DNA of 64,000 bases from Rhodanobacter sp. LX-99. GTDB lineage: Bacteria; Pseudomonadota; Gammaproteobacteria; Xanthomonadales; Rhodanobacteraceae. The notes beneath the pieces are model-generated. The model was not told the DNA's origin. It ran no database searches and saw only the letters and a program-made list of their open reading frames with translations. Position 1 is the stretch's first letter. Each line of letters begins with the position of its first letter. A program made the translations under genes and the position numbers. The stretch lies in NCBI RefSeq assembly GCF_018599185.1, contig NZ_JAHFVL010000001.1:1-64000 (forward strand), read 5' to 3'. Below are positions 25,041 to 56,735 of this stretch, one piece after another.

Positions 25041-25125
25041 GCCCAGGTGGCGGAACTGGTAGACGCACTACCTTGAGGTGGTAGCGACGCAAGTCGTAGG
25101 GGTTCGAGTCCCCTCTTGGGCACCA
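25041..25125 (+). tRNA. tRNA-Leu (GAG)
   Basis: 85 nt including an encoded CCA. Acceptor GCCCAGG pairs with CTTGGGC (one G-T pair), anticodon stem CTACC/GGTAG with loop TTGAGGT gives anticodon GAG (25075-25077), and the T-arm is GGGG-TTCGAGT-CCCC. The variable arm makes it a class II tRNA, as expected for leucine. It sits 11 bp after secG and is probably co-transcribed with tpiA-secG. Confidence 0.97.
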
Positions 25126-34352: not shown

Positions 34353-34707
<355 letters not shown>

Positions 34708-48349: not shown

Positions 48350-49486
48350 ATGCCTATTCCTGCCCTGCTGGCCCTCGAAGACGGCAGCGTGTTCCATGGT
48401 CACGCCGCCGGCGCCGTTGGCGAAACCGTTGGCGAGGTGGTTTTCAACACCGCCATGACCGGTTACCAGGAGATCCTCACCGATCCTTCCTACTCGCGCC
48501 AGATCGTCACGCTGACCTATCCGCATATCGGCAACACCGGGATCAACGCCGAGGATGTCGAATCCACCGCCGTGCACGCTGCCGGCCTGATCGTGCGTGA
48601 TGTGCCGCGCCGGGCCAGCAGCTGGCGCAGCACTGAAAGCCTGCCGGATTACCTGAAGCGCCACGGCACCGTGGCGATCGCCGGCATCGACACCCGTCGG
48701 CTGACCCGCATCCTGCGCGACAAGGGCGCGCTGGCCGGCTGCATCATGGCCGGCGAGCAGGTCGATACCGAAGCCGCGCTGGCCAAGGCGCGCGCGTTCC
48801 CCGGCCTGAACGGGATGGATCTGGCCAAGGTGGTCAGCACCGCCAAGCCGTATGTGTGGAATCAGGGCGTGTACGACCTCGACCGCACCGCGTTCAATCA
48901 GCCCGCGGCGCGTTTCAAGGTGGTCGCCTACGACTTCGGCACCAAGCTCAACATCCTGCGCCTGCTCGCCGAGCAGGGCTGCGAGGTCACCGTGGTGCCG
49001 GCGCAGACGCCTGCCGACGAGGTGCTGGCGATGCAGCCCGATGGCGTGTTCCTGTCCAACGGCCCCGGCGATCCGGCAGCCTGCGATTACGCCATCGCGG
49101 CGACCGGGCAATTCCTCGACGCGAAGATCCCGCTGTTCGGCATCTGCCTCGGCCATCAGCTGATGGGCCTGGCGCTGGGCGGCAAGACGCTGAAGATGAA
49201 GTTCGGCCACCACGGGGCGAATCACCCGGTCAAGGACCTGGACGACGGCCGCGTGCTGATCACCTCGCAGAACCACGGCTTCGCGGTGGACCCGGCCACG
49301 TTGCCGGCGAACGTGCGAGTCACGCATACCTCGCTGTTCGACGGTTCGCTGCAGGGTTTCGCGCTGACCGACCGCCCGGCGTTCTGCTTCCAGGGCCATC
49401 CCGAGGCGAGTCCGGGCCCACTCGACATCGGCTATCTGTTCAAACGTTTCGCCGCACTGATGCAGGAGGCCCGCACGCATGCCTAA
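48350..49486 (+). CDS. carA: Carbamoyl-phosphate synthase small subunit
   Basis: 378 residues. N-terminal CPSase domain ([35 protein letters not shown]) and class I glutamine amidotransferase with nucleophile Cys in [11 protein letters not shown] and His/Glu in GHPEASPGP. It makes ammonia from glutamine for CarB, feeding arginine and pyrimidine synthesis. Its stop overlaps the carB start by 8 bp. The 213-bp region before it holds the promoter and may carry arginine/pyrimidine control, but no clear ARG box was seen. Confidence 0.97.
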
Positions 49487-52400
49487 GCGTACCGATATCA
49501 AGAGCATCCTCATCATCGGCGCCGGCCCGATCGTGATCGGCCAGGCCTGCGAGTTCGACTATTCCGGCGCGCAGGCGTGCAAGGCGCTGAAGGAAGAGGG
49601 CTACCGGGTGATCCTGGTGAACTCCAACCCGGCCACGATCATGACCGACCCGGACACCGCCGACGCGGTGTACATCGAGCCGATCAACTGGCAGACGGTG
49701 GAACGCATCATCGCCAAGGAGCGCCCGGACGCGGTGCTGCCCACGATGGGTGGCCAAACCGGCCTGAATTGCGCGCTGGACCTCGCCGATCACGGCGTGC
49801 TGGAGAAGTACAACGTCGAGCTGATCGGCGCCAAGCGTGAAGCGATCCGCATGGCCGAGGACCGCGAACTGTTTCGCGTGGCGATGGGCGAGATCGGGCT
49901 GGAGTGCCCGAAGGCCGAGGTCGTGCGCACGTTCGAGCAGGCGCTGGAAACACAGGCCAAGGTGGGTTTTCCCACGGTCATCCGGCCCAGCTTCACGCTT
50001 GGCGGCTCCGGCGGCGGTATCGCGTACAACCGCGAGGAGTTCGAGGAGATCGTCAAGCGCGGCCTGGAACTGTCGCCGGTGGGCGAGGTACTGGTCGAGG
50101 AATCCGTGCTCGGCTGGAAGGAGTTCGAGATGGAAGTGGTCCGCGACACCGCGGACAACTGCATCATCGTGTGCTCGATCGAGAATCTCGACCCGATGGG
50201 CGTGCACACCGGCGACTCGATCACGGTGGCGCCGGCGCAGACGCTCACCGACAAGGAATACCAGCGCCTGCGCGACGCCTCGATCGCCGTGTTGCGCAAG
50301 ATCGGCGTGGACACCGGCGGCTCCAACGTGCAGTTCGGCATCAACGCCGAGGACGGCCGCGTGGTAGTGATCGAGATGAACCCGCGCGTGTCGCGCTCGT
50401 CGGCGCTGGCATCGAAGGCCACCGGTTTTCCGATCGCCAAGATCGCCGCCAAGCTGGCGGTCGGCTACACCCTGGACGAGCTGAAAAACGACATCACCGG
50501 CGGCCTCACGCCGGCGTCGTTCGAGCCGTCGATCGACTACGTGGTCACCAAGATCCCGCGTTTCGCGTTCGAGAAATTTCCCGCCGCCGACGCGCGCCTG
50601 ACTACCCAGATGAAGTCGGTGGGCGAGGTGATGGCGATCGGCCGCACGTTCCACGAGTCGCTGCAGAAGGCGCTGCGCGGACTGGAGATCGGCAAGACCG
50701 GGCTCAACCCGACCGGGCTGGACATCAGCACGGCGGACGGCCTGGCTTCGCTCAAGCGCGAGTTGCGCGAACCGCGCCCCGATCGCGTCTTCCATCTCGC
50801 CGACGCGTTCCGCGCCGGCCTGACGCTGGAGGAGGTGCACAGCCTCAGCCGGGTCGATCCGTGGTTCCTCGCGGCGTTCGAGGACATCGTGCTGACCGAG
50901 ACGGATGTCGTGGCGCAAGGCATCACCGCGCTCGACGAACCGCGCGTGCGCGAACTCAAGCGGCTCGGCTTTGCCGATGCTCGCCTGGCCGAACTGCTCA
51001 ATACCGACGAAGCCTCGTTGCGCCACCTGCGCCATACGCTGGGCGTGCGCCCGGTGTACAAGCGGGTGGATTCCTGCGCGGCCGAGTTCGCCACCAGCAC
51101 CGCCTACATGTATTCGACCTACGAGGAAGAGTGCGAGGCGGCGCCGACCGAGCGCGACAAGATCATCGTGCTCGGCGGCGGCCCGAACCGGATCGGGCAG
51201 GGCATCGAGTTCGACTATTGCTGCGTGCACGCGTCGCTGGCGCTGCGCGAGGATGGCTACGAGACCATCATGGTCAACTGCAACCCGGAAACCGTCTCCA
51301 CCGATTACGACACTTCCGACCGCTTGTACTTCGAGCCGCTGACGCTGGAGGACGTGCTGGAAATCGTCCACGTCGAGAAGCCGAAGGGCGTGATCGTGCA
51401 GTACGGCGGGCAGACTCCGCTGAAGCTGGCGCGCGCGCTGGAAGCGGCCGGCGTGCCGATCATCGGCACCAGCCCCGACTCGATCGACCTGGCCGAGGAC
51501 CGCGAGCGCTTCCAGCACATGATCGAGAAGATCGGCCTGAAGCAGCCGCCGAACCGCACCGCGCGCAACGCCGATGAGGCCTTGGCGCTGGCCCGCGAGA
51601 TCGGCTACCCGCTGGTGGTGCGGCCGAGCTACGTGCTCGGCGGCCGCGCGATGGAAGTGGTGCACGACGACGCCGACCTGTCGCGCTACATCCGCGATGC
51701 GGTGAAGGTGTCGAACGATTCGCCGGTGCTGCTGGACCGCTTCCTCGACCACGCGGTCGAGGTCGACGTGGACGTGATCGCCGACGCCGAGGGCAACGTG
51801 CTGATCGGCGGCATCATGGAACATATCGAGGAGGCCGGCGTGCATTCGGGCGATTCGTCCTGCTCGCTGCCGCCGTATTCGCTGAGCGCGGACATCCAGG
51901 ACGAAATGCGTCGCCAGGTCAGCGCAATGGCGAGGGAACTGAAGGTGATCGGCCTGATGAACACCCAGTTCGCGATTCAGGGCGACACGGTATTCATCCT
52001 GGAAGTGAACCCGCGTGCCTCGCGCACGGTGCCGTTCGTGTCCAAAGCCACCGGCGTGCCGCTGGCCAAGATCGCCGCGCGCGTCATGGCCGGTCGTTCG
52101 CTGGCCAGCCTGAACGCGACGCGCGAGGTGATCCCGGCGTACTACTCGGTGAAGGAGGCGATCTTCCCGTTCCTGAAATTCCAGAACGTCGATCCGATCC
52201 TCGGCCCCGAGATGCGCTCGACCGGTGAAGTGATGGGCGTGGGCCGCAGTTTCGGCGCGGCCTTCGCGCGTGGCCACGAAGCGGCCGGCATCAAGGCACC
52301 GATGATCGGCAAGGCATTCCTGTCGGTACGCGATGGCGACAAGGAACGCCTGTTGCCGGTGGCCAGGGAAATCATCGCGCGCGGTTTCAACGTAGTGGCG

Positions 52401-52706
52401 ACCTCCGGTACCGCCAGCTACCTGGCCGAGCACGGCGTGGCCTGCGAGCGGATCAACAAGGTGCTCGAAGGCCGCCCGCACATCGTCGATCTGATCAAGA
52501 ACGGCGAGATCGTCTACATCGTCAACACCACCGAGGGCAAGCAGGCGATCGCCGACTCGTTCTCGATACGGCGCGAGGCACTGCAGCACCGCGTCACGTA
52601 TTCCACTACCGTGGCAGGCGCCCGTGCGCTCGTGCATTCGCTGGATTTCCACAGCGATGGCGAGGTGCACAGCCTGCAGGAACTGCACAAGGAGCTCATC
52701 GCATGA
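49479..52706 (+). CDS. carB: Carbamoyl-phosphate synthase large subunit
   Basis: 1075 residues with two homologous ATP-grasp halves: [30 protein letters not shown] starts the carboxyphosphate half and [23 protein letters not shown] the carbamate half, followed by a C-terminal MGS-type allosteric domain ([29 protein letters not shown]). It uses bicarbonate, ammonia and 2 ATP. Overlaps carA (8 bp) and greA (ATGA), so all three are co-translated. Confidence 0.98.
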
Positions 52707-53179
52707 GTCGCCCCCCCATCACCAAGACCGGCGCAGAGCGTTTGCGCGCGGAACTGGAACGGCTGAAGTCCGCCGACCGCCCGCGCATCATCGCGGCGAT
52801 TGCCGAAGCGCGCGCACACGGTGATCTCAAGGAGAACGCGGAATACCACGCCGCCCGCGAACTGCAGAGTTTCACCGAAGGCCGCATTGCCCAACTGGAG
52901 GGCTTGCTGTCGACCGCCGAGGTGATCGATGTCGCCCGGCTGAAACCGGGCAACCGCATAGTGTTCGGCGCCACCGTGGACCTGGAGGACGAGGATTCCG
53001 GCGTGGCAGTGACCTATCAGATCGTCGGCGACCTGGAAGCGGACATCAAGCAGCGATTGATCGCGGTGTCCTCGCCGATCGCCCGCGCACTGATCGGCAA
53101 GAGTGCCGGCGACAGCTTCGAATTCACCGCACCGAACGGCGTCAAGCACTACGAAATCATCGACGTCCGTTACTCGTGA
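52703..53179 (+). CDS. greA: Transcription elongation factor GreA
   Basis: 158 residues. N-terminal coiled-coil hairpin with acidic tip ([22 protein letters not shown]: the D and E coordinate Mg2+ in the RNAP active site) and FKBP-like C-terminal domain ([19 protein letters not shown]). It stimulates cleavage of backtracked RNA. ATGA overlap with carB. A GGCTCCGG/CCGGAGCC hairpin at 53190-53216 follows the stop. Confidence 0.97.
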
Positions 53180-53466: not shown

Positions 53467-54378
53467 TCACAAGCCCGGTGCAACGGCCGTTTCCGCCACC
53501 GTGGCCAGGAATTGCTGCAGGGCCGGGGAATGGTCGTCGGCCCGACAGGCCACGGCCAGCAGCAGGTAGGCATCGGGATCTTCCAGCGGCACGTAGCAGA
53601 CCCCGGCCAGGCGCACGGTACGCATGCTGGCCGGCACCAGGGCCAACCCCAAGCCGGCGGCAACCAGGGCGAGCAAGCCGTTGATCTGTTGTGCGTGCTG
53701 GGTGATCGATGGCTGGAAGCCGGCCCGCGTCGCCAGTTTCACCAGCCGGTCGTACAGCGTGGAAGCCAGTTCGCGCGGTTGCGACACGAAGGCATCGCCG
53801 GCCACCTCGGCCAGGCGCAGGCTGTCGCGGCTGGCCATGGGATGGCCGGCGGGCAGGGCGAGCAGCAAGGGCTCGCGATCGATCATGCTCAGCCGCAGGC
53901 CGCGCGCGTCCTGTTCATGCGCTGGCTCATCGCGAACAAAGCCGACGTCGATCTGGCCGGCGAGCAGGGCGGCGAACTGCGGTTCGGTATACATCTCGCT
54001 GAGTTGCAGGCGCACGTTGGGCGCGATCTGGCCAAAACGCAGCAAGGCCTGCGGCATGGCCGGATGGAACGAGACCGAGACGGTATAGGCCAGCCGCAAC
54101 TGGCCGCTGTAACCTGCCGCCGCAGCCACTACCTGGCTGCGTGCTTCGTCGACCTTGGCCAGAATCTGCCGGGCCTGCTCCAGGAAAATCCGGCCCGGCT
54201 CGGTCAGCGCCACGCTGCGCTTGGTGCGCTCCAGCAGGCGCACCCCCAGATCCTGTTCCAGCGACTGGATCTGCTGCGACAGCGGCGGCTGGGAAAGGTG
54301 CAGGCGCAGCGCCGCCCGGGTGAAGCTGAGCTCCTCGGCGACGGCAACGAAATAGCGCAATTGGCGAAGATCAAACAT
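53467..54378 (-). CDS. LysR-family transcriptional regulator (BenM/CatM-like)
   Basis: 303 residues. N-terminal winged HTH MFDLRQLRYFVAVAEELSFTRAALRLHLSQPPLSQQIQSLE and a periplasmic-binding-like effector domain (LRLAYTVSVSFHPAMPQALLRF, AGQIDVGFVR, GLGLALVPASM). The DLRQLRYF start with LSQPPLSQQIQ resembles the BenM/CatM group, which sense aromatic acids; the ligand here is unknown. Its upstream region is AT-rich and shared with a divergent candidate sRNA at 54446, a plausible regulatory target. Confidence 0.92.
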   Translation of the reverse strand: MFDLRQLRYFVAVAEELSFTRAALRLHLSQPPLSQQIQSLEQDLGVRLLERTKRSVALTEPGRIFLEQARQILAKVDEARSQVVAAAAGYSGQLRLAYTVSVSFHPAMPQALLRFGQIAPNVRLQLSEMYTEPQFAALLAGQIDVGFVRDEPAHEQDARGLRLSMIDREPLLLALPAGHPMASRDSLRLAEVAGDAFVSQPRELASTLYDRLVKLATRAGFQPSITQHAQQINGLLALVAAGLGLALVPASMRTVRLAGVCYVPLEDPDAYLLLAVACRADDHSPALQQFLATVAETAVAPGL

Positions 54379-54445
54379 ATAGTGATTTCAAATTAATAAG
54401 GCGCTAAATATATATTAGATACTTTATTGCGTCGATCATAAAATC

Positions 54446-54583
54446 ACTCTCGTCCCGCCACTTCCCCTCCCCCCTAGTGGCGGCGGCCCTCGCCCCGCAG
54501 CGACGCTAAATACGACATCTGGTTCAACTCCCCCCCTGAACCCATGTCGATGCGTCTCCCCTGCGGGGCGCTTTCTTTTTTTG
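54446..54583 (+). ncRNA. Candidate small RNA with C-rich loops (plus strand)
   Basis: Hairpin 1: CCGCCACT/AGTGGCGG (54455-54483) with the 13-nt loop TCCCCTCCCCCCT. Hairpin 2: CGACAT and GGTTCA on one arm, TGAACC and ATGTCG on the other (54513-54549), closing the loop ACTCCCCCCC. This is enclosed by ACGC/GCGT and by a perfect 10-bp helix CGCCCCGCAG (54491-54500) / CTGCGGGGCG (54561-54570), followed at once by CTTTC and T7, an intrinsic terminator. CATAAAAT (54437) is a possible -10. Both flanking genes are on the minus strand, so the signal is not a gene's 3' end. Loops complementary to Shine-Dalgarno sequences are seen in Xanthomonas sX13 and alpha-r15 sRNAs. Confidence 0.7.
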
Positions 54584-54629
54584 CGATCGGCACCGCTGCC
54601 CACCTGGCAGTGGCGCCGCCGTGTCGGGC

Positions 54630-56735
<2,106 letters not shown>

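Follow-up and report, generated by a model that had tools for sequence, protein, structure and literature searches.

Between a LysR-type regulator gene and a flavoenzyme gene of Rhodanobacter sp. LX-99 lies a segment (positions 54446 to 54583) that carries C-rich hairpin loops and ends in a terminator-like structure. This raises the question of whether the segment encodes a regulatory RNA and, if so, how such an RNA might act and which protein might control it. In this study, we analyzed the segment within a stretch of 64,000 nucleotides (the window, to which plain coordinates refer) and in related genomes.

Anatomy of the locus

The first-pass annotation of the window placed both flanking genes on the strand opposite to the proposed small RNA (sRNA), and this is the case. 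A gene for a LysR-type regulator with HTH_1 and LysR_substrate domains occupies positions 53467 to 54378 (-), divergent from the sRNA, and a gene for a FadH/OYE-like flavoenzyme occupies positions 54630 to 56657 (-) as its converging neighbor. The LysR protein has its closest named relative in Rhodanobacter (95% identity). Its best-scoring NCBIfam models are AlsR and HcaR, and none of the best 25 of 53 matches passes its own cutoff. The name fadH given earlier to the second gene is a loose label: the product passes the Pfam cutoff for Oxidored_FMN, but none of the best 25 of its 64 NCBIfam matches reaches a cutoff. Elsewhere in the window, carB followed by greA (49479 to 53179, +) converges on the LysR gene, and a tRNA gene (25041 to 25122, +) and a tmRNA (34353 to 34707, +) are ordinary.

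Direct reading of the sequence confirmed the C-rich loops, the perfect 10-bp helix and the U7 tract that had been described for the segment. The minimum free energy of positions 54446 to 54583 (+) is -58.4 kcal/mol, compared with -31.7 kcal/mol (standard deviation, 3.3) for 200 dinucleotide shuffles, none of which folded as well (z = -8.15). The putative sRNA extends from 54451 to 54582 (+), i.e., about 130 nt, with its start placed by a -10-like hexamer and its end by the U tract. It opens with a 5′ hairpin (54453 to 54486, +), in which 54453-54462 pairs with 54476-54486 with one bulged base and which presents loop 1 (54463 to 54475, +; TCCCCTCCCCCCT/UCCCCUCCCCCCU), an anti-Shine-Dalgarno-like sequence. 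A 4-nt linker joins this hairpin to a long interrupted stem (54491 to 54570, +) with loop 2 (54527 to 54536, +; ACTCCCCCCC/ACUCCCCCCC) at its tip. The stem is built from the perfect 10-bp helix, formed by CGCCCCGCAG (54491-54500) and CTGCGGGGCG (54561-54570), followed inward by the pairings 54502-54506/54552-54556, 54513-54517/54545-54549 and 54521-54526/54537-54542. Five bases (CTTTC; CUUUC in the RNA) separate the 10-bp helix from T7/U7 (54576 to 54582, +). The two elements with C-rich loops stand as first described, except that the second hairpin is not separate from the terminator: a single interrupted stem carries loop 2 at its apex. A simple terminator scan performed at chance level here (one found versus 0.9 expected) and reported a different pairing (54552-54571).

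Upstream of the sRNA, the -10-like hexamer TAAAAT (54439 to 54444, +) marks a candidate promoter. A promoter scan gave three sites versus 0.1 expected, and the -35 element of the putative sRNA promoter is weak. Furthermore, a near-palindromic box, AAATATATATT (54406 to 54416), lies between the sRNA and LysR genes and is a candidate LysR operator.

Conservation and covariation

Relatives of the locus were retrieved via the LysR protein, without use of the RNA as a query, which gave 66 loci. All 49 of the closest LysR loci (L038 to L086, 73 to 95% identity), titled Rhodanobacter, Dyella, Frateuria, Fulvimonas or unclassified MAGs, hold both the RNA and the FadH-like gene, a combination absent from the other 17, more distant loci. 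Stem loss in relatives retaining the flanking LysR and fadH genes had been named in advance as evidence against the RNA; the 49 close loci show no such loss.

Compensatory changes in the stems were found, as the earlier reading had anticipated. In a plain MAFFT alignment of 50 sequences, which was not fitted to the structure, both sides had changed in 17 of 30 pairs, a result reached by none of 500 shuffles, and standard pairs made up 98.6% of paired cells, compared with at most 57.2% in slid controls. An alignment of 72 loci (70 distinct), fitted to a covariance model and hence biased towards the structure, gave both-side changes in 23 of 30 pairs and 188 cells. By parsimony on the LysR tree, 79 both-side changes were counted. 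The 5′ hairpin alone had both-side changes in 8 of its 10 pairs in the 50-sequence alignment and in 10 of 10 in the model-fitted one.

Since G-U cells (88) outnumber A-C cells (5), the plus strand is favored as the one that is folded. A TANNNT hexamer begins 6 to 9 nt ahead of the model start in 65 of the 72 loci and is missing from the other 7, and the tail columns of the 72 sequences are 62% T. Taken with the covariation, this strand asymmetry, the conserved -10-like hexamer and the U-rich tail strongly support the original proposal of a plus-strand sRNA of about 130 nt. The segment is one structured RNA family in Rhodanobacteraceae. A coding reading is disfavored, because loop 1 varies in length while the pairs covary.

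The two loops are conserved in kind. Across the 72 sequences, loop 1 is 73% C and only 5% G, and each loop contains a run of at least four C in every sequence. The longest runs measure 4 to 7 C in loop 1 and 4 to 11 C in loop 2; those of the window RNA have 6 and 7. The motif CCCUCCC, which contains the anti-Shine-Dalgarno core CCUCC, occurs in loop 1 of 67/72 sequences, and CUCCC occurs in loop 2 of 62/72. They are nevertheless not the invariant C loops that the first-pass annotation had proposed to look for, given that loop 1 ranges from 8 to 16 nt. A loop of varying length that keeps its C content suits pairing to G-rich sites.

Distribution and linkage to the LysR gene

A covariance search with strict filters, by which some weak matches were lost, located the RNA in 144 of 233 Rhodanobacteraceae genomes (own genome included) from 17 of 26 genera, always as a single match. 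DNA similarity alone retrieved the RNA in 50 of 100 genomes, again with our own among them. In a sample covering the whole order, the RNA was present in 28 of 200 genomes, all 28 belonging to Rhodanobacteraceae. Within our own genome, the window RNA is the sole significant match of the model, and a distant-mode search of plasmids gave no match.

We then compared this distribution with that of the LysR protein, an ortholog of which (E ≤ 1e-80) is present in 145 of the 233 family genomes, our own among them. The two distributions coincide in 228 of these genomes, 142 of which match both the RNA and LysR and 86 neither. In one of the 142 (G144), the RNA is incomplete at a contig end and reaches 64.7 bits under truncated scoring. 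In the order-wide sample, too, the genomes with the RNA and those with a LysR match are the same 28. Wherever both are present (142/142), the RNA is divergent from LysR at a distance of 61 to 123 nt, which is exactly 67 nt in 87 of the 142.

Two genomes have the RNA without a LysR match: in G017, LysR is interrupted by a contig start, and in G255, the RNA match is weak (26.6 bits). The G255 locus (L164:1592-1679, -) shows a row of hairpins with C-rich loops ending in a terminator-like stem and looks like a different kind of element. Conversely, G232 has LysR without a strict RNA match, which appears at 54.6 bits with default filters, and in G045 and G228, where LysR is present, the RNA scores only 7.3 and 12.3 bits. 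C-rich hairpins remain at the same place in the latter two genomes, which also carry a ATTATATATT box at the equivalent position. Their loci (L160 and L161) have an enlarged region in which several hairpins with C-rich loops replace the standard fold, upstream of a LysR gene with 55 to 56% identity.

The FadH-like gene is present in 62 of the 72 loci; the ten misses include one short stretch (L162). It is absent from the fetched flanks of 9 of 20 diverged loci, in which LysR and the RNA are found together. FadH was therefore rejected as an essential partner and is regarded as a neighbor, and its gene probably lies outside the module.

The AAATATATATT box is present in 49 of 50 aligned loci, and some diverged loci carry one-base variants, e.g., AAAGATATATT and AAAAATATATT. 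In 12 of 12 genomes from seven genera, AAATATATATTNGNT has one perfect match per genome, always at the sRNA-LysR promoter. With two mismatches allowed, further sites appeared in all 12 genomes, and the reversed control also had some in 8 of 12. In our own genome, AAATATATATTNGAT has no second match even at one mismatch. As a GC-rich genome gives few chance copies, the single perfect box means the absence of another perfect site and not LysR binding, and there is room for a putative looser operator elsewhere in the genome. We infer that LysR may control the sRNA; the co-occurrence, the near-fixed divergent spacing and the single perfect box per genome strengthen this prediction.

Relation to known RNAs

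No Rfam family reached its gathering score for the window RNA or in the seven relatives scanned. For positions 54380 to 54620, 6C and suhB gave subthreshold matches at E values up to 10, and membership in either family was rejected. A search of the literature on small RNAs of Rhodanobacter, Luteibacter, Dyella and Rhodanobacteraceae, covering titles and abstract openings of open-license papers, returned no description of this RNA, and no such paper linked sX13 with Rhodanobacter.

6C RNAs (RF01066), which presumably include mycobacterial B11 as the same RNA, are defined by two loops with at least six C. The window RNA resembles them in loops with runs of about six C, although over the 72 sequences the longest run can be as short as 4 C in either loop. 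The RF01066 model, whose gathering score is 47, gives the window RNA 19.1 bits (E = 1.9), and 6C belongs to another phylum. B11 represses a reporter with six G in its 5′ untranslated region (PMC10470900).

A different likeness is offered by AbcR1 and AbcR2 of Sinorhizobium meliloti. These RNAs carry an anti-Shine-Dalgarno sequence, CUCCUCCC, in the loop of the 5′ hairpin, in addition to UUCCCCUC; their genes adjoin the LysR gene lsrB, and AbcR1 needs LsrB (PMC8844928). The window RNA likewise has UUCCCCUC (54462-54469) and an adjacent LysR gene, and CCUCC occurs in loop 1 of 67/72 sequences of its family. AbcR1/2 differ in being an alphaproteobacterial tandem pair that binds Hfq. We take AbcR1/AbcR2 to be alpha-r15, for which Rfam holds a model; up to E = 10, however, the Rfam families listed for the window RNA were 6C and suhB, with no AbcR/alpha-r15 family among them.

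sRNA genes adjoining LysR-type genes are also described for gcvB, which is divergently transcribed from the gene of its activator, gcvA (PMC1557403), and for oxyS, adjoined by oxyR (PMC11975290). The window pair is arranged divergently like gcvA/gcvB, but the regulators, RNAs and seeds of both systems are different ones; GcvB, for instance, targets C/A-rich elements (PMC3771888).

The C-rich loops of sX13 act on G-rich motifs near start codons (PMC3771888). The sX13 RNA (RF02232) of Xanthomonas is similar to the window RNA in size (its Rfam model has 115 nt), has apical C-rich loops and occurs in the same bacterial order. It has three hairpins with C4, C4 and C5 loops and lies at polA, whereas the window RNA has two loop-bearing elements. 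RF02232 (gathering score, 50) was not listed for positions 54380 to 54620 at E up to 10. In our own genome, polA is located at G000:C1:2240046-2242787, the window being G000:C1:1-64000, and an sX13-like RNA lies downstream of polA at G000:C1:2239794-2239907 (L159:1795-1908, -), with 41.6 bits against the gathering score of 50. The locus is thus separate from sX13, as the first-pass annotation had supposed, and identity with sX13 was rejected on the grounds of the missing RF02232 listing, the position away from polA and the number of loop elements.

At E up to 0.01, sX13 matches were found in 45 of 60 genomes, 5 of which exceeded the cutoff, compared with 1 of 14 controls, which stayed below it. 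Matches within the genus mostly fall below the cutoff, which is exceeded in 2 of 36 genomes (own included in the 36). A second, weaker sX13-like match occurs in many genomes of the genus (in our own at G000:C2:179812-179932, 30 bits) and is perhaps a further RNA with C-rich loops. The cell probably has at least two C-rich-loop RNAs. Applied to four sX13 loci (L159 and L166 to L168), the window-RNA model gave weak scores of 12 to 23 bits, for which a shared build or remote kinship may be responsible.

Proposed function and alternative explanations

We consider it likely that the locus encodes a trans-acting sRNA, about 130 nt in length and controlled by LysR, which covers G-rich ribosome-binding sites; in this model, transcription, regulation by LysR, pairing with mRNAs and repression are all predicted steps. 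Rightward transcription of the sRNA would use a promoter whose -10 element lies at 54439-54444 and would end at the sRNA's own long hairpin and U7. LysR would probably bind the AAATATATATT box and control the sRNA, and lysR itself, in response to a small-molecule signal. The transcript would display two C-rich loops on stable stems, of which loop 1 (CCCUCCC) would mimic the anti-Shine-Dalgarno sequence, with loop 2 acting as a C run. Either loop could then pair with G-rich or GGAGG-like ribosome-binding sites, by which the translation of several mRNAs would be blocked.

The structure could be assigned to the minus strand instead, as a 5′ leader or attenuator of lysR or as the 3′ end of the FadH transcript, given that its stems are readable on both strands and that, in the minus-strand direction, fadH precedes the segment and lysR follows it. 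On that strand, however, the G-U pairs would become A-C mismatches; moreover, the U-rich tail and the -10-like hexamer are both on the plus strand and FadH can be missing, which makes this assignment extremely improbable. A structure that only terminates transcription or belongs to the promoter region, with no regulatory function, would account for the long GC-rich hairpin followed by U7, and transcription is itself a prediction. It is nevertheless very unlikely: the neighbors are both on the other strand, and therefore no coding gene needs a terminator; the 5′ hairpin, dispensable for termination, covaries in 8/10 or 10/10 pairs; and the loops retain their sequence.

Two further readings accept a functional RNA. 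It might act as a sponge or scaffold that binds a protein at its C-rich loops, and not by base pairing; both the strongly conserved loop composition and the covarying stems, which hold the loops in a fixed frame, agree with this. CsrA/RsmA-type sponges, however, present GGA in their loops, whereas loop 1 is poor in G, and its variable length with constant C content suits pairing better than a shaped site. The C-rich-loop sRNAs cited above act by pairing with G-rich motifs, and we judge a sponge or scaffold to be distinctly unlikely. Somewhat less so, though still unlikely, is a genuine trans-acting sRNA of which LysR is not the controller, the linkage reflecting a shared divergent promoter and common descent. 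LysR binding is a prediction, and FadH, too, remains in 62/72 loci; but LysR and the RNA stay together in the 9 of 20 diverged loci from which FadH is gone, their matches agree in 228/233 genomes, and the box has one perfect copy per genome in 12/12 genomes.

An extension of the LysR-controlled sRNA model, which we put forward tentatively and rate at somewhat less than an even chance, is a switch of one regulator and one sRNA. LysR would serve chiefly the sRNA, its sole conserved high-quality operator would be the shared promoter, and a metabolite signal would be converted into wholly post-transcriptional silencing. The pair would have been inherited as a unit through Rhodanobacteraceae and enlarged in one diverged genus.

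The locus adds an RNA family without an Rfam match at gathering score, present in 144/233 genomes and adjoined by a candidate regulator. If the model holds, the Gammaproteobacteria would provide one more example of silencing through C-rich or anti-Shine-Dalgarno loops. Coexistence with an sX13-like RNA in one cell makes a division of labor testable, and the strict LysR-RNA pairing offers a handle on signal and regulon.

Screen for candidate targets

Candidate target sites were screened with the motif GGGGGAG-N3-10-ATG against a reversed control. Our own genome has 31 such sites, of which one falls on the strand complementary to the sRNA, versus 7 for the reversed motif. The corresponding counts are 34 versus 3 in G014, 45 versus 4 in G053, 60 versus 10 in G057 and 40 versus 11 in G166. 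The motif before ATG thus exceeds its control in five of five genomes, but since it is Shine-Dalgarno-like in itself, the screen neither supports nor refutes the proposed targeting. Duplex energies are uninformative because they ignore internal structure. These G-rich sites could also be targeted by the resident sX13-like RNA.

Open reading frames (ORFs) of at least 70 amino acids were compared from 30 of the 31 sites of our own genome, 59 of 60 in G057 (where two places overlapped), 40 of 40 in G166, 7 of 45 in G053 and 7 of 34 in G014. This gave 23, 30, 16, 5 and 4 ORFs, respectively. Among the ORFs compared from these five genomes, a conserved regulon was not found; one orthologous pair (L185/L276) recurs. 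Pfam labels were sought for 20 of the 23 ORFs of our own genome; among the products so labeled are a PilN-like protein, a response regulator and a VgrG-like protein, which we regard as leads.
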